Below, in pieces: positions 19,487 through 31,758 of a DNA stretch of 39,311 bases (position 1 is its first letter; each line of letters opens with the position of its first letter). The stretch is from positions 1 through 39,311 of the forward strand of contig JADGAR010000034.1 of assembly GCA_015231915.1 (NCBI GenBank), given 5' to 3'. Below the pieces are notes generated by a model. The model had not been told where the DNA came from, did not search any database, and saw only the letters and a list, made by a program, of their open reading frames with translations. This DNA is from Magnetococcales bacterium (GTDB lineage Bacteria; Pseudomonadota; Magnetococcia; Magnetococcales; Magnetaquicoccaceae). A program made the translations under genes and the position numbers.

Positions 19487-19939
19487 CTATTTATAATCCC
19501 CTCGATCCGTTTTCGCCAGTTCCACTGTTGCCAAAACCGCAGTGCGGTGCAACAAGTCGCGTTCGTGACCGTTTTCCGGGGCGGTCGAGAGGGAGTGCAG
19601 GGCCTGATCGCGGGTTTCGCGCAGCCGTTTGCGGGTTTCGTCCGGCTCCACCAGTTCGTCGTTGATCAGGTCGCGGCCCAGTGCCTCCAGTGAGTCCAGC
19701 AGGTCGGTGGCCTGTTCCGTCTGCTGACGGCGCTGGTAGGGGGTGGGAGCGCGTTCCGCCGTACTGACCGCGCCGGCGGAGAGGGTCGCCAGCAGGGGGA
19801 TGGTCTCCTGGATCCCGGTGAGGGCCGCCAGAGACTTGGAAAAATTTGCCCCGTCCAAAGACTGGGCGGAATGTTTTGCCTGAGCGGCCGCCGAGCGAGC
19901 CAGGGTCTTGCCACTCTTTTCCAGGCGACGAACGGTCAT
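19487..19939 (-). CDS. fliX: FliX-like flagellar assembly regulator
   Basis: A 150-residue protein whose pattern resembles FliX, which in Caulobacter couples early flagellar assembly to activation of FlbD and sigma54 class III genes. Similar features are a low-complexity Ala/Ser-rich N-terminus and the helical stretch YQRRQQTEQATDLLDSLEAL. The C-terminal end RTAVLATVELAKTD matches the conserved VELAK signature. I recognise the pattern by memory and have not aligned it. The start at 19939 is chosen because GGGAG lies eight bases upstream; an ATG at 20026 would add 29 residues. No other flagellar gene is in the window. Confidence 0.62.
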   Translation of the reverse strand: MTVRRLEKSGKTLARSAAAQAKHSAQSLDGANFSKSLAALTGIQETIPLLATLSAGAVSTAERAPTPYQRRQQTEQATDLLDSLEALGRDLINDELVEPDETRKRLRETRDQALHSLSTAPENGHERDLLHRTAVLATVELAKTDRGDYK

Positions 19940-20050: not shown

Positions 20051-22456
20051 TCACTCCTGACGTTGGTCTTTTTCCCGCGCGGCTCTTGATTTTACGAAAC
20101 GTAGCAGATCCCGTGCCATGTCGGCTCCGCGCTGATAGCGTTGTTCGGGATCCTTGCGCAATGCCGCGACCAGCACGCCGGCCAGTTCGGGCGGGATGTC
20201 CGACCGGAAATCCGCGCGGGTGGGGGAGAGCGGGGAGAGAATGCGCTGGCGCAGTTCCTCGGGATCATCCTCCCGGAACGGGGGTTGCCCGGTGAGCAGG
20301 TGCATGAAAATGGCGCCCAGGGCGTAGAGGTCGCTGCGCGGATCGTCGATGTGTTCGTTCACCGCCTCGGGGGCGGAGTAGGGGGAGAGTCCGCTGCCTG
20401 CCGGATGGCGTCCCAGGAAGCGGGCGACGCCGAAATCCCGGATCTTGAGCACGCGTCCTTCGGGATCGAAAATCAGCTCCCGTGGTCCGAGATTGCCATG
20501 GGTGACTCCCTGCTGATGGACGTAATCCAGGGCCAGGGCGGCCTGGATCATGGCATGCAGGAGCAGGGGCAAAGGCATGGGGTTGTCCGGGGAGAGGTAG
20601 CGGTCCATGGCGTGTCGTGGCGAAAAGGACTCCATCGCCACGATGAAGAGCCTGGCAATCTGGCTGGCGTCCAGAACGGCGACCACGCCGCGATGGTGGA
20701 GGCCGCGCAGGATGGTCAGGTCCCGTTCCCAGAGGCGGGCCAGGGCGATCTCCGTTGCATTGGTGGACGGCCCGCGTGGCATGACGCGCAGGAGGACCGG
20801 TTCTTCCCGTTCCCGATGATGGGCCAGGAACAAGGCGCCCAAGGCATCGCTGGCCACCTCTTCGGTGACGCGGCAGGGTCCCAGTTCCGTGGGCAGGCGA
20901 TCCAGGATGCCGGCGGGGGTCTCTTCTTCCTGGTCGGCCATGCGCATGGCGTTCTGGAGTCGTTCCTGGAGATGGGGGAAATGCGCGTCGTATTTGGTCA
21001 TGCGCAGGTAGACCTGGGTGGCCTCGGCGAAGCGGCGCGCCCTTTCGAAATCCAGGGCGAGGCGGTCGAGGATGTGCATCATGTCGGCGTCCATGGGGCA
21101 AAGCAGGAATTTTTCCCAGGCCATGGCCCCTTTCCCCTGCCCCTGGAATGCCAGTCCCAGCATCCGGTTGTTTTCCGCGATGGTCATGTGCTGGAAGGAG
21201 CGGTGGGGCCGGTGGAAGAGCGCCTGCTTGACGATGACCAGCAATAAAAAGCCGCTCGCCAGCAAGGCTGCCGGTCCCATCATCGGCACCCAGAATCCCC
21301 GGTGGGTCATGAAGCGGAAATGAAACAGCAGGATCACGCCCAGCGGGAGCAGCAGCAGCACGGACAGCCCCAGGATGCCGGGGAGGGTCCTGGGCTGGGA
21401 GGAGGGCAGGGCGAACAACAGGAGCACACCGGCCACCAGGTAGAGCAGGTAGCGGACCGTGCCGGCCCAGGAGGGGATGACGATGGGATCCCGGTTGAGA
21501 ATGGCGGCCACGGCGTGGGCCTGGATCTCCAGGGGGGTCATGGCGCGTCCGCCCGGCGTGACGAGGGGGGGGGCGAGCATGGGCGAGGTCAACCCCACCA
21601 GGGCGATCCTGCCGCGCAGGCGGTCGGAGGGGATGTTGCCTGCCAGGATCTCGTGCATGGGATAGGTGGCGAATTCCGCATGCCCATCCGCAGGGGAGGG
21701 GAATTGCGGCAGCATTGCCCAGTGTTTCCAGGTGCGCAGTTCCGTTTCTCCCAGGTCGAGGCCGCCATCGGGATGGAGGCGGATCCATTTCTTGTCCAGT
21801 TTTTGAAAATGGGCGACCACCGCCAGGGCCAGGGAGGGCAGGATGATGTCACGGTATTGGACGACCAGGGGAACGGAACGCATCGTGGGGTCGGCGGCAG
21901 CGGGGGGCAGGGCGACGCCGATGCGGGCCGCCCCGGAGCCGAGGGACTCTTCGGGGAGGCGGATGTCGGGGACGGTCATGGGTTGGAGTTTCTCGCCCAC
22001 ACCCCCGTCCAGGGCGGGGATGGCCGCCTCGAGCAGATAGGGGGGGGGCTTGCGGGGCGCCGGATGCGCCGGGCCGTCCCGGTGGGGGGGCAGACCCAGG
22101 ACCACGTTGCCGTTGGCGCGCAGCGCCCTGGAGAGAGGACCGGGCTGGGCATCGGGAGGCAGGGCGGGCAGGGGAAAGGTGAAGCCGATCACCTTGGCGC
22201 CGTTTTGGTTCAGGATCTCCAGCAGTCGGACGAAGGGGAGTTCGTTCCATGGCCAGGGTCCCTGGCGGGCGATGGAGGTTTCGTCGATGGTGATCAGGAC
22301 GATGCGGGCTTCCGGGGGACGGTGGGTGGCCGTCATCGCGCGGTCGTAGGCCATCCATTCCAGCGCCTGGATGGGCGGGAAGCGATCCGCGACGAGAAAA
22401 AACAAGATCAAAAGCAACGCCAGAAAACGGTCGTTGCCGTAAAGGAAACGGTTCAT
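20051..22456 (-). CDS. CHASE2-domain receptor with C-terminal Ser/Thr kinase-like (pseudokinase) domain
   Basis: An 801-residue membrane receptor. Architecture in order: a transmembrane helix near residues 11-24, then a periplasmic CHASE2 sensor to about residue 320 (VLITIDETSI, the later IALVGLTSPM and ALEIQAHAVA-like segment). Three transmembrane helices lie at about 330-430, then a helical TPR-like stretch to about 510 and a protein-kinase fold to the end. The kinase domain keeps DFG (IRDFGVARFL) and the APE-like SAPEAV. It lacks a Gly-rich loop, has Arg where the ATP-anchoring Lys belongs (PVLLRVM), and has HGNLGPREL in place of HRDLKPEN. The catalytic Asp, Lys and Asn are therefore all replaced. 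It may sense a periplasmic signal and pass it on by binding rather than phosphorylation. Confidence 0.85.
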   Translation of the reverse strand: MNRFLYGNDRFLALLLILFFLVADRFPPIQALEWMAYDRAMTATHRPPEARIVLITIDETSIARQGPWPWNELPFVRLLEILNQNGAKVIGFTFPLPALPPDAQPGPLSRALRANGNVVLGLPPHRDGPAHPAPRKPPPYLLEAAIPALDGGVGEKLQPMTVPDIRLPEESLGSGAARIGVALPPAAADPTMRSVPLVVQYRDIILPSLALAVVAHFQKLDKKWIRLHPDGGLDLGETELRTWKHWAMLPQFPSPADGHAEFATYPMHEILAGNIPSDRLRGRIALVGLTSPMLAPPLVTPGGRAMTPLEIQAHAVAAILNRDPIVIPSWAGTVRYLLYLVAGVLLLFALPSSQPRTLPGILGLSVLLLLPLGVILLFHFRFMTHRGFWVPMMGPAALLASGFLLLVIVKQALFHRPHRSFQHMTIAENNRMLGLAFQGQGKGAMAWEKFLLCPMDADMMHILDRLALDFERARRFAEATQVYLRMTKYDAHFPHLQERLQNAMRMADQEEETPAGILDRLPTELGPCRVTEEVASDALGALFLAHHREREEPVLLRVMPRGPSTNATEIALARLWERDLTILRGLHHRGVVAVLDASQIARLFIVAMESFSPRHAMDRYLSPDNPMPLPLLLHAMIQAALALDYVHQQGVTHGNLGPRELIFDPEGRVLKIRDFGVARFLGRHPAGSGLSPYSAPEAVNEHIDDPRSDLYALGAIFMHLLTGQPPFREDDPEELRQRILSPLSPTRADFRSDIPPELAGVLVAALRKDPEQRYQRGADMARDLLRFVKSRAAREKDQRQE

Positions 22457-22602: not shown

Positions 22603-23862
22603 TCATTCGTACAGTTTGGGGTTGGTGAGGAACTCCAGGGGATTGACGCGCCATTTTTCGTGGTCCTCGTAGGCCTTGATGATGTAACCGGAGGCGGTGT
22701 CGCCCTGATAGGTCAGCAGGTTGACCTCCTTGGGTTCCAGGCGCTGACCGGTCTTGCCGTTGATGATGATCTTCACCATCGGGTGGAGGAGGCTTTCGCT
22801 GTTGGGCAGGATCACCACCCCCAGCAGGCCGTTTTCCAGACGCACCAGTGTTCCCATGGGGTAGATGCCCACACACTGGACGAATTTCTGATACAACTCG
22901 CTGCTGAAATGGAAGCGGCTCCACTCCAGCATGCGTTTGAGGGCTACGTGCGGGGCGTTTCCCTTGTGATAGCAGCGATCCGAGGTGATGGCGTCGTAGA
23001 CATCGACGATCGCCGCCATCTGGCCGAACTGGTTGATTTCACTCCCTTTCAGTCCCTGGGGGTAGCCGGAGCCGTCGTGGCGTTCGTGATGCTGGGCGGC
23101 CACGTGCATGCTCACCTCGGCGATGCCTGGGGTCTCGGAGAGGATTTTGCGGCTGAAGACCACATGCTTTTTCATGATGGCGAACTCTTCGTCGGAGAGC
23201 TTGCCGGGCTTGTTGAGGATCGCCTCCGGGGTGCGCATTTTGCCGATGTCGTGCAGCATCCCTCCCACCCCCACGTTGATGATCTCCTCTTCTTCCATGC
23301 CCAGGGTCCGGCAGAACGACATCAGAAAGACCCCCACGTTCACCGAATGCATGAAGGTGTACTCGTCTTTTTGCTTGATCAGGCTCAGGGAGAGCAGGGC
23401 GTCCGGGTTGCGGAACATGGAATCGGCCATGTTGCGCACCGCGTCCTTCACCGGGGTGAGGGTCACCTGTTTGCCCAGACGGGCATCTTCCAGCACGGAA
23501 CCCACCAGGGAGCGGGCCTGGGCCTTGACCTTGGCGGCCTGCTGCAGCTCTTTTTCCATGGGGACGACGACTTCCTTGTCCTCCTCATCGTCCCCCAGTT
23601 CCCGCAACTGGGCCTCCAGCATGGCTTGCACCTCGGCGGCGCTGGGGGCCTCTTCCACGTCCTTGCCGCGCGCGGTGTCGATGTAGACCTCGCGGATGCC
23701 GTGGGCGAGCACCGCCTGGGCCTCTTCGTCGGTGCGCAGCAGGCGCGGACCCCGGAAGGCGTTCGGGTCCCGGTCCCGGCAGCAGGGGTCTTTCCAGTCG
23801 TGGTTGAAGTCGTGTACATACATCCCGGCTGTCAGAATGTCGGTGGACACCCGTTTGATCAT
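22603..23862 (-). CDS. HD-GYP domain c-di-GMP phosphodiesterase
   Basis: A 419-residue cytoplasmic protein predicted to hydrolyse cyclic di-GMP. The N-terminal part resembles DUF3391 (MIKRVSTDILTAGMYVHDF), often found before HD-GYP. The HD-GYP domain (about residues 165-340) is complete: YTFMHSVNVGVF, the HD pair in GGMLHDIGKMRT, KKHVVFSRKIL, HHERHDGSGYPQGLKG with the GYP motif, and the ITSDRCYHK region. No receiver domain is fused, so the input is unknown. It could be regulated through its N-terminus. The start at 23862 overlaps the stop of the upstream siroheme-synthase gene by four bases (ATGA). Confidence 0.9.
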   Translation of the reverse strand: MIKRVSTDILTAGMYVHDFNHDWKDPCCRDRDPNAFRGPRLLRTDEEAQAVLAHGIREVYIDTARGKDVEEAPSAAEVQAMLEAQLRELGDDEEDKEVVVPMEKELQQAAKVKAQARSLVGSVLEDARLGKQVTLTPVKDAVRNMADSMFRNPDALLSLSLIKQKDEYTFMHSVNVGVFLMSFCRTLGMEEEEIINVGVGGMLHDIGKMRTPEAILNKPGKLSDEEFAIMKKHVVFSRKILSETPGIAEVSMHVAAQHHERHDGSGYPQGLKGSEINQFGQMAAIVDVYDAITSDRCYHKGNAPHVALKRMLEWSRFHFSSELYQKFVQCVGIYPMGTLVRLENGLLGVVILPNSESLLHPMVKIIINGKTGQRLEPKEVNLLTYQGDTASGYIIKAYEDHEKWRVNPLEFLTNPKLYE

Positions 23863-28033: not shown

Positions 28034-29035
28034 CTATCCCCCGACGGAGGCCATGTTCAGAGTGGGGGAGAGCTGGACAGAAGCGGCATCGAACTGATGA
28101 CGCGCCGGTTTCATGGCCACCGCCGCCCGGATCGTCTCCAGAAGTGCTTCGTCCGAGGCCCCGGCCCGCAGGGGCGTTTTCAGGTCCACCACGTCCATGG
28201 CGCCCAAACACAATACCAGTCCCCCCCTGGAAGTGAGCCGCATCCGGTTGCAGGTGTCGCAGAAGTGCCGCGAACGCGCTGCAATCACCCCGACTTCCGC
28301 TCCGGTCCCCTCGATGCGGAAGTAACGGGCCGGACCCGCCCCCAGCCCCACAGCCGGGTCCGCCGGCAACGGTTCCTGACCGAAGGCCTCACGGGCAATC
28401 CGCAAAATCTCTGCAGCACTGATGAATCGTTCGGGATACGACTGGCCGGCATCCCCGATCGGCATGGTTTCGATAAAACGTAACAGCAGCCCGTTTCGGG
28501 CGGCGAAACGGATCATCTCCGGGATTTCGTGTTCGTTCACCCCGCGCATCACCACCATGTTGACCTTGACCGGCGCAAGACCCGCCTGCACAGCCGCGTC
28601 GATTCCGGCCAATACCCGGGTCAGGTCTCCGCCACGGGTGATGCGGGCAAAAGTCTCCGGGGTCAACGAATCCAAAGAGATGTTGACCCGCCTGACCCCC
28701 GCCGCGCGCAGGTCATGAGCGAATCTGTCCAGCAACAAGGCATTGGTGGTCAGGGAAAGTTCGTGCAAACCGGGCATGGCGCCCAGTTCCCGCACCAGGG
28801 AGAGCAGATTGCGCCGCAGGAGCGGCTCCCCGCCGGTCAGCCGGAAACGGTCCACCCCCAGCCCGACGAACAGGCGCACCAGACGGGCGATCTCCTCCAG
28901 GGTGAGCAGTTCCACGTGATCGGGCAACATCGGCTCGACCGATGGACGACAGTAGTCGCAGCGCATATTGCAACGGTCGGTCACCGAAACCCGCAAGTAA
29001 CGGATGGTGCGTCCGAAGGAGTCGGTCAAGGGCAC
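28034..29035 (-). CDS. moaA: GTP 3',8-cyclase MoaA
   Basis: Radical SAM enzyme that, with MoaC, turns GTP into cyclic pyranopterin. The 333-residue protein has the N-terminal 4Fe-4S motif CNMRCDYC, the LTGGEPLLRRNL segment and the C-terminal cluster CDTCNRMRLTSRG...LVLCLG. It ends with the MoaA-type GG. I take GTG 29035 as start because the MPLTDSFGR end matches the family and GGAG lies ten bases upstream. The frame stays open to 29104, but that part lies inside moaC and is Ala/Arg-rich. It is last in the moaE-mogA, moeA, moaC, moaA operon. Confidence 0.93.
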   Translation of the reverse strand: MPLTDSFGRTIRYLRVSVTDRCNMRCDYCRPSVEPMLPDHVELLTLEEIARLVRLFVGLGVDRFRLTGGEPLLRRNLLSLVRELGAMPGLHELSLTTNALLLDRFAHDLRAAGVRRVNISLDSLTPETFARITRGGDLTRVLAGIDAAVQAGLAPVKVNMVVMRGVNEHEIPEMIRFAARNGLLLRFIETMPIGDAGQSYPERFISAAEILRIAREAFGQEPLPADPAVGLGAGPARYFRIEGTGAEVGVIAARSRHFCDTCNRMRLTSRGGLVLCLGAMDVVDLKTPLRAGASDEALLETIRAAVAMKPARHQFDAASVQLSPTLNMASVGG

Positions 29036-29042
29036 TGGCGGA

Positions 29043-29528
29043 TCACTCCGCGCGCCGGAAGTGGCCGCTCTTGCCGCCGCTTTTTTCCAGCAGCCGGATC
29101 GCACCGATCACCATCTCGCGATCCACGGCCTTGCACATGTCGTAGATGGTCAGGCCGGCCACGGCCACAGCGGTCATGGCCTCCATCTCCACCCCGGTGC
29201 GACCGGTGCTCTTGGCCCAGGCACGCATCAGAATCCGGTTGCCGGCATGATCCGGCTCGAACTCCAGACGCACCGAGGCGAGATGGATCGGATGACACAA
29301 CGGAATGAGCCGGTCCACCTGCTTGGCGGCCATGATTCCGGCCAGCCTGGCGGTCTCCAGGACATCCCCCTTGGCCAAGCCACGGTCCAGAATCAGCCGC
29401 AAGGTGGCGGGGGCCATGATCACCTCCCCTCCGGCCACGGCCACGCGCTCGGTCTCCGGCTTGGCCGAGACATCCACCATGCGGGCAGCGCCCTGTTCAT
29501 CGAAATGGGTCAGTTCCATGGGCGTCAT
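29043..29528 (-). CDS. moaC: Cyclic pyranopterin monophosphate synthase MoaC
   Basis: Partner of MoaA in the first step of molybdopterin synthesis. The 161-residue protein contains [18 protein letters not shown], the catalytic-region [38 protein letters not shown] and [14 protein letters not shown]. Start codon and moeA stop overlap by four bases (ATGA), so translation is coupled. Seven bases separate it from moaA. Confidence 0.94.
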
Positions 29529-30730
29529 GCATAATCGATCAGGCGGATGGTCACCACGTCCCCGTCCTGGAGCGTCACCGGGGCTTCGGGCAGTACGATC
29601 AGGGCGTTGGCTTTCGCCAGGCTGGTCAGGATTCCCGACCCTTGTGCCCCGGTGGTCTCCACCCATACCCCGTCCGGGTCGAAATGGGCCACGCCGCGAA
29701 TGAAATCCATGCGGTTGTGTTTTTTGTTCAGCCGGCCACGGAAGGTGGCCCGCAATTGCCGGGGCGGCTCGTCGGCGGCCCCCATCAGGCGCAGCAGGGC
29801 AGGCCGGACCATCAGCAGAAAGACCGTCAGGCCGGAAACCGGATTGCCGGGCAGGCCGAAAAAACAGGCCTGGCCCAGACGGCCATAAGCCTGCGGCTTG
29901 CCGGGTTTCATGGCCACCTGCCAGAAATGGATCTCCCCCTGGCCCCCCAGCACCTCCTTGACCAGATCGTGATCCCCCACCGACACCCCCCCGGTGGTGA
30001 TCACCGCGTCGGCCTCCTCGCCCGCCTGGCGCAACAGAGCGGCGATCCGCTCCCGGTCATCCCGGACCACGCCCAGATCCAGCACTTCCATCCCCAGGGT
30101 GGTCAATGCGGCCCGCAGGGAGCTGCGGTTGCTGTCGTACACCTGGCCGGGCAGCAGCGGGGTTCCCGGCTCCAGCACCTCGTTGCCCGTGGAGAGCAAC
30201 GCCACCACCGGACGGCGCACCACCTCCACCTGCGCCAGACCCAGACTGGTCAGCAGCCCCAGATGGGGGGGGCGCAACCGGCATCCGGCGGGCAGCACCG
30301 CAGTTCCCTGGCGGATGTCTTCCCCGGCGGGGCGGATGTTCTCGCCAATGCTCCTGCCAGGGGGGATCGTCACCCGGTCTCCCTCGCGGCGCACCATCTC
30401 CTGCATCACCACGCAGTCGCATCCCGGAGGAATCGGCGCGCCGGTCATGATGCGCACCGCCTCGCCCTCCCACAACGGGTTGGTCAGCCGGTCGCCGGCG
30501 GGCAGGTCGGCGATCACCCTCAGGGTGACCGGCCCGGTCCCGGCGCAATCGATACTGCGCACCCCATAGCCGTCCATGGCGGAATTGGCGTGATTGGGCA
30601 CATCCGCCGGGGCAATCACCGGCTCGGACAATACCCGTCCCAGGGCCTCGCTGACCGGCACCGCAACGCTTTCCCGGATCGGTCGGACCTCCGCCAGCAT
30701 GCGGGCATAGGCTTCGTCGAACGGCATCAT
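29525..30730 (-). CDS. moeA: Molybdopterin molybdenumtransferase MoeA
   Basis: Inserts molybdate into adenylated molybdopterin. The 401-residue protein has domain I with [13 protein letters not shown], a [13 protein letters not shown] region, and the MoCF-binding domain [17 protein letters not shown] with the [15 protein letters not shown] loop. A C-terminal beta domain closes it. GGAGG lies eight bases before the ATG at 30730, which sits one base after the upstream stop. An ATG at 30727 is also possible. Confidence 0.93.
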
Positions 30731-30731
30731 T

Positions 30732-31715
30732 TCAATGTCCTCCTCCATGGGCCATGCGCAAAGCATGGGGCACCAGATCGGCCACCGCCTCCAGGCTCTC
30801 CACCGCCCCGCGGGTGGAGCCGGGGAGATTGATCACCAGGGTGCGGTCGCAAAAGGCGCTCACCCCTCGGGTCAATGCGGCGGAGCGCTTTTTGCGCAAT
30901 CCCGCTGCCCGGATCAGCTCCGCGAAACCCGGCAGCTCCCGGTCGCACACGTCGCGGGTGGCCTCCGGCGTCACGTCCCGCGGCCCCGGTCCGGTCCCGC
31001 CGGTGGTCAGGATTACATTCAGTTGCTCCTCGCGCGCCCAGTGGTGCAGCCGTTCCCGGATTTTTTCCCGGTCGTCCGGCAGCAGATCCCGCGCCGCCAC
31101 CACACCTCCGTAGCCCCGGACCAGCCCTTCCAGGGCGTCTCCGCTGGCATCCGTGGCCCGCTCGCGACTGTCCGACAGGGTCAGGATCCCGACCCGCACA
31201 TCGTGCCATGCCACGGTCCGGCCATGGCCATGGTCATGCTCCTTGCATCCAGGCATGTTGTTCGGTTCCTCCCAGCGACCGGCTGCCGCCTCGCAGCCGG
31301 GACAGACCTCCACCCAACGGGCCGTGCCCCCTGTTGTGATCTCCTGTTTCCAGAAGGTGGCCGATTTTTTCAGGTAATCGATCATGTAACGGCAGGCGTC
31401 GAACGCATCGGCCCGATGTCGCGCCGTGGCCACCACCAGCACGATGTTGTCCGCCACCTGCAGGCGTCCCACCCGATGGACCACCAGGATCTCTTCCACC
31501 GCGAACCGCGCCCGCGCGGCGGCCTCGATGCGGGCCAGTTCCGCCTCGGTCATGCCGGGGTAGTGCTCCAGGATCATGGCCTCCAGGGCATCTCCTTCCG
31601 CCAGGTCGCGCACCGTGCCGACAAAGGTCACCACCCCTCCCACCATGGTCCGGCCCTGCAACAGCGCCTCCACCTCCCGTTCCGTCGAGAAATCCTCTGT
31701 CTGAATGCGAATCAT
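30732..31715 (-). CDS. MoaE-MogA (MoaB) fusion protein with Cys/His-rich linker
   Basis: One 327-residue protein joins two molybdenum-cofactor enzymes. Residues 1 to about 140 are MoaE, the large subunit of molybdopterin synthase (VGTVRDLAEG, VHRVGRLQVADN, LKKSATFWKQE with the family Lys). The linker, about residues 138-170, has CPGC, then C157, H160, H162 and H164. From about residue 172 the MogA/MoaB adenylyltransferase begins (RVGILTLSDSRE), with TTGGTGPGPRDVTPEAT and NLPGSTRGAVESLEAV. Both parts look complete and catalytic. The start ATG has AGGA seven bases upstream. The linker residues look able to bind a metal. A single frame with good matches throughout argues against a sequencing error. 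Confidence 0.9.
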   Translation of the reverse strand: MIRIQTEDFSTEREVEALLQGRTMVGGVVTFVGTVRDLAEGDALEAMILEHYPGMTEAELARIEAAARARFAVEEILVVHRVGRLQVADNIVLVVATARHRADAFDACRYMIDYLKKSATFWKQEITTGGTARWVEVCPGCEAAAGRWEEPNNMPGCKEHDHGHGRTVAWHDVRVGILTLSDSRERATDASGDALEGLVRGYGGVVAARDLLPDDREKIRERLHHWAREEQLNVILTTGGTGPGPRDVTPEATRDVCDRELPGFAELIRAAGLRKKRSAALTRGVSAFCDRTLVINLPGSTRGAVESLEAVADLVPHALRMAHGGGH

Positions 31716-31758
31716 ATTGATGTCCTGGGGTATGTCGATAGGCAAACCACATCCCCTT

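Follow-up and report, generated by a model that had tools for sequence, protein, structure and literature searches.

The gene at positions 20051–22456 of the window, the 39,311-nucleotide stretch of Magnetococcales DNA analyzed here, encodes a membrane receptor in which a CHASE2 domain is followed by three transmembrane (TM) segments, a linker and a Ser/Thr-kinase-fold domain that has lost most of its catalytic residues. We consider this protein to be probably a receptor pseudokinase with a non-catalytic output, its vertical descent leading back to an active CHASE2 kinase that occupied this locus. The features on which the analysis draws are as follows.

20051–22456, minus strand: CHASE2 receptor gene, predicted pseudokinase, 801 aa, open reading frame with an ATG start
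22361–22447, minus strand: N-terminal hydrophobic, TM-like segment, aa 4–32 (Kyte–Doolittle scan)
21419–22402, minus strand: CHASE2 sensor domain, aa 19–346 (Pfam PF05226, E 1.5e-40)
21212–21469, minus strand: three TM-like segments, aa 330–355, 356–385 and 388–415 (hydropathy scan)
20927–21196, minus strand: conserved cytoplasmic linker, aa 421–510 (LGLAFQGQG...LALDFERAR), common to canonical relatives
20087–20887, minus strand: kinase-fold domain, aa 524–790 (Pfam PF00069), predicted to be catalytically dead
20837–20854, minus strand: degraded Gly loop A535-S-D537-A-L-G540 (canonical GxGxxG), two of three Gly replaced
20786–20788, minus strand: β3 Lys replaced by Arg557 (codon CGC), as in 9/9 genus members
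20720–20722, minus strand: αC Glu replaced by Asp579, as in eight of nine genus members (Glu in one)
20477–20500, minus strand: catalytic loop, aa 653–660, HGNLGPRE for canonical HRDIKPAN (HGN codons 20492–20500)
20429–20437, minus strand: DFG, kept, aa 674–676
20366–20377, minus strand: SAPE segment, aa 694–697, preceded by a shortened activation loop that lacks the Gly-Thr motif
28034–31745, minus strand: molybdenum-cofactor genes moaA, moaC, moeA and moaE/mog, about 5.6 kb from the receptor

The first-pass annotation of this DNA had called the product a CHASE2 receptor, and the Pfam match, the N-terminal TM segment and the three TM segments behind the domain agree with that assignment; a PF05226 search of the organism's own genome returned identical CHASE2 coordinates. 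The Pkinase match spans aa 539–775 (E 3.4e-25) and profile positions 12–253 of 263, i.e., both the N- and the C-lobe, and the best PDB match of the kinase domain is PknB (E 7e-23). Pfam identified no domain in the protein beyond CHASE2 and Pkinase. The host genome (4.0 Mb) holds four CHASE2 and ten kinase-domain matches, the window receptor being one of each. AlphaFold2 modeling reached a pLDDT of only 44 for the kinase domain and 34 for the full protein, with an alignment of only a handful of sequences.

Among the residues that define active Ser/Thr kinases (β3 Lys, HRD Asp and DFG Asp), the DFG Asp alone is present. With two of the three missing, the domain falls within the sequence definition of a pseudokinase used in PMC12599244, namely the absence of at least one of them. 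The positions annotated earlier for the HGN codons of the HGNLGPREL loop and for the Arg codon at the ATP-anchoring Lys proved exact, and the Gly-rich loop reported as missing survives as ASDALG. Three changes had been overlooked: αC Glu to Asp579, catalytic-loop Lys to Gly657, and the metal-binding Asn of HRDxxxxN to Glu660; the HRD Asp itself is Asn655. The DFG and APE-like segments do remain in the window copy, as had been noted, together with the αF Asp and αI Arg, but DFG is peculiar to this copy and its closest relative, with EFG in seven of the nine genus members. The losses predict a catalytically dead domain.

A protein search of 48 genomes of the class gave strong matches in 23 and none in the remaining 25. 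All nine copies found in the genus carry HGN, the Lys-to-Arg change and Asp in place of the second loop Gly. H653-G-N-L656, D537 and R557 are invariant across these nine proteins at about 40% identity, and so are 56 of 177 C-lobe positions. Identical changes occur in Magnetococcales bacterium WMHbin3, an independent MAG whose copy is 82% identical, and HGN, Lys to Arg and the Gly-loop Asp recur in seven further genus genomes. Since independent genomes and orthologs carry the same substitutions, assembly error is excluded, as are chance, sequencing error and a single mutant copy. The annotation had named orthologs with HRD and Lys intact as the finding that would overturn it; the genus orthologs have neither. 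Contigs L061, L062, L063, L066 and L091 of several genus members end within the receptor gene, which is split between contigs in G001 and probably in G004.

Outside the genus, degenerate copies were found in two other genera, belonging to the GTDB families labelled f8 and f13. Their catalytic loops read HGN, HGG, HGR or, once, HGD; the Lys and the Gly loop are kept, the αC Glu is Ile or Met, and DFG is altered in all of them (DFA or NFA in f8, GF-type motifs in f13). Across the 19 degenerate copies the HRD Arg is always Gly (19/19), the catalytic Asp is Asn, Gly or Arg in 18, the canonical αC Glu is replaced in 18, and the activation-loop Thr/Gly-Thr elements are missing throughout. The residues that bear the fold persist: APE Glu and αF Asp in 19/19, and αI Arg in every copy that reaches that point. 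Canonical residues at all these positions (Gly loop, Lys, Glu, HRD, Asn, DFG) are seen in each of the 21 outside relatives sampled, which come from four other Magnetococcia genera and, in 17 cases, from Pseudomonadota beyond the class. In a 398-genome sample of the phylum, matches occurred in 84 genomes, and the motifs were read in part of these.

One branch unites the 19 degenerate copies from three GTDB families when the catalytic columns are removed (SH-aLRT 100), and the same branch is recovered from CHASE2 and the linker with the kinase domain omitted (SH-aLRT 95); both are quick trees, and composition deviates in several rows. The loss of catalytic residues is old and common to three Magnetococcia families, and the protein is still maintained. 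In G028 and G030, whose copies are canonical, and in the majority of degenerate genomes, the receptor gene stands head-to-head with molybdenum-cofactor genes. Degenerate and canonical copies thus share a divergent locus and are therefore orthologs, in which catalysis would have been lost in place.

The simplest history begins with a single early event that removed the HRD Arg together with the Gly-Thr motif of the activation loop; the catalytic Asp and the rest followed lineage by lineage. The loss of the catalytic Asp is placed after that of the HRD Arg because the HGD copy, in G024 (L077:7743-10415), sits inside the clade. The Asp of the catalytic loop, the DFG Asp, the Lys and the Gly loop would then have disappeared later, in separate lineages. 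The G024 protein, which also has VAVK and NFA for DFG, is a possible intermediate of the catalytic loss.

The divergent pairing with moaE/mog-moeA-moaC-moaA, which several families show for canonical and degenerate copies alike, raises a narrower version of our explanation, in which the receptor's output specifically controls the head-to-head molybdenum-cofactor or anaerobic-respiration programme. We rate this as very improbable, given that these genes were not found beside the non-Magnetococcia relatives searched, that the pairing has been rearranged in the window and broken up in G007, and that adjacency may reflect only slow rearrangement or a shared promoter.

Every degenerate copy is a long open frame, interrupted at contig ends alone. 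Neutral drift would destroy the frame quickly; simulated at 0.1 substitutions per site, it introduced about four stops and left 0/300 frames open. Between the window and WMHbin3, dN/dS is about 0.5 gene-wide (0.50) and 0.43 in the kinase domain, and it lies below 1 over most of the gene (679 codons, Fisher p 5e-7). Other degenerate pairs with measurable dS have kinase-domain values of 0.11–0.30, the G041–G037 pair being saturated; all these values come from Nei–Gojobori counting without codon-bias correction and are rough. Neighboring genes of the window–WMHbin3 pair lie at 0.09–0.25, and the receptor gene evolves faster. This excess over the neighbors, the different decay of motifs between lineages and the lack of a strong match in 25 of the 48 class genomes would suit a relic in decay, under relaxed selection since it ceased to be a kinase and with no present function in its kinase domain. 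We judge such a relic improbable: the frames stay open over long stretches in all 19 copies across three families, dN/dS is below 1, C-lobe positions are invariant, and a canonical Magnetococcia pair likewise shows dN/dS of 0.44 in CHASE2 and 0.25 in the kinase domain.

For the preferred reading, a receptor pseudokinase, we hypothesize that the periplasmic CHASE2 domain senses a signal and passes it through the three TM helices and the linker to the pseudokinase domain, which would keep the kinase fold without transferring phosphate. The output would most likely be conformational, i.e., the signal-dependent docking of a cytoplasmic partner, either an active kinase or another regulator. Since the loss is old and shared across families while the protein is still maintained, shape change or partner binding probably replaces phosphorylation. 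The substitutions common to the genus and the loss of the HRD Arg throughout the 19-copy clade support, at the level of sequence, the earlier prediction of a pseudokinase-bearing membrane sensor.

In the window's genus, the pseudokinase probably lacks normal ATP binding, by analogy with VRK3: this protein combines HGN with a Gly-loop Asp, and experiments show it to be inactive and unable to bind ATP (PMC2639636). Nucleotide binding may persist in the f8 and f13 members, since they keep the Lys and the Gly loop and since JAK2 JH2, which has HGN, binds ATP. JAK2 JH2 also weakly autophosphorylates (PMC4718504), so HGN is not strictly incompatible with activity. The domain could accordingly be imagined as atypical but active, either a low-activity kinase like JAK2 JH2 or, in the manner of SelO and SidJ, a kinase-fold transferase of another kind, working through Arg557, Glu660 and Asp674 (Glu in relatives). 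The genus changes conserve charge (Lys to Arg with Glu to Asp, Asn to Asp or Glu, DFG to EFG), EFG does not prevent titin kinase from being active (PMC2639636, Table 1), and the G024 clade member keeps HGD and VAVK; the same G024 protein, however, reads NFA, with the Asp of DFG gone. Kinases described in PMC2639636 as unconventional yet active have one key motif changed and a Gly loop that is intact or plausible, whereas several severe changes coincide here, including the replaced catalytic Asp in 18/19 copies and the Asp537 invariant in the genus, which makes an active enzyme improbable in our judgment.

Outside Magnetococcia, most canonical copies adjoin a PP2C phosphatase and many also an FHA protein; of this kinase–PP2C–FHA operon, adjacent PP2C and FHA genes are not present at the window receptor. 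Almost all Magnetococcia genomes carry a core PP2C of another type. PP2Cs grouping with the kinase-adjacent type turned up in just two of them, beside the receptor in G030 and on a separate contig in G025, and the kinases of these two are canonical. Two of four canonical Magnetococcia genomes thus have this type, against none among the degenerate-copy genomes with examined PP2Cs; on the tree this contrast amounts to a single event, and copies may be hidden where genomes are incomplete. We offer only tentatively, as a possibility, an order-wide receptor-pseudokinase family in which the whole CHASE2 kinase pathway would have switched from phosphotransfer to allosteric output, lost its phosphatase and converged on the HGN/HGR of JAK JH2, VRK3 and GC-C.

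The gene neighbors of the receptor differ within the genus, which we count against the preferred explanation. An HD-GYP protein with DUF3391 is encoded directly upstream (window 22603–23862, minus strand); it was rejected as an operon partner, because the adjacency is confined to the window and WMHbin3. A Peripla_BP_6 periplasmic binding protein and a chemoreceptor (MCP) follow the receptor in G010, G005 and G009 (L059:3271-7040), and the binding protein alone stands beside it in G002. The pair could be a sensing partner in those genomes; as a general partner it was rejected, since it was seen beside the orthologs of G010, G005, G009 and, in part, G002. Between the receptor and lepA lies a gene of 150–179 aa (window 19487–19939, minus strand), whose product gives a weak, sub-threshold match (E 0.052) to FliX, a regulator of flagellar assembly, along almost the full length of the profile.

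Canonical CHASE2 Ser/Thr kinases, such as the cyanobacterial cbSTKII-CHASE2 (PMC2176072) and the Mariprofundia-like form with its PP2C and FHA operon, share domain order, linker and kinase fold with the window protein, and those of G028 and G030 also the orthologous locus. Unlike it, they keep the Gly loop, Lys, Glu, HRD, Asn and DFG, and outside Magnetococcia they mostly have an adjacent PP2C and often FHA. VRK3 and JAK JH2 resemble it in HGN for HRD, VRK3 also in the Asp at the second loop Gly, but both are eukaryotic and lost their motifs separately; VRK3 retains the Lys-Glu pair and the Asn, and JAK JH2 binds ATP and adjoins an active kinase in the same chain. The GC-C kinase-homology domain and plant ARLPK1/2 are membrane-linked pseudokinases whose HGR (GC-C) and HGN (ARLPK) match clade members, although they are eukaryotic and differ in domain architecture.

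Bacterial pseudokinases are already known. The first-pass annotation had thought them uncommon, a view contradicted by a 2025 review (PMC12599244), which describes seven families (ActPs1-3, GLW, CP1, DYD and DLHK) and loss of all three motifs as relatively common in prokaryotes. These are likewise Ser/Thr kinase-fold proteins, several of them membrane-bound, and none has CHASE2 in that review. Comparison by defining features covered CP1, DLHK and GLW, and the window protein differs from each: CP1 has no TM and a linked COG3899 ATPase, whereas the window protein has TMs and no such domain; DLHK has no TM and keeps the HRD Asp, replaced here; and GLW reads GLW for HRD, against HGN and N-terminal TMs in the window protein. 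Neither a CHASE2-linked pseudokinase clade nor Magnetococcales together with CHASE2 or pseudokinase was found in the literature searched, which lies largely outside subscription journals. The genome also encodes another probable pseudokinase, a PEGA-domain protein (L129:3223-5103; G000:C67:27222-29102) with HRN for HRD, no β3 Lys and GFD for DFG. It has relatives in 23 of the 48 class genomes; in those read, DFG is altered too, with the Asp kept only in G028 and G030, and several keep HRD.

Receptor pseudokinases have received little study in bacteria. The present gene, which has largely kept a single chromosomal position, can be traced from the intact kinase via the partly degraded HGD copy to fully degraded copies, and the canonical orthologs, serving as controls, make both the order of loss and the replacement of phosphotransfer testable.
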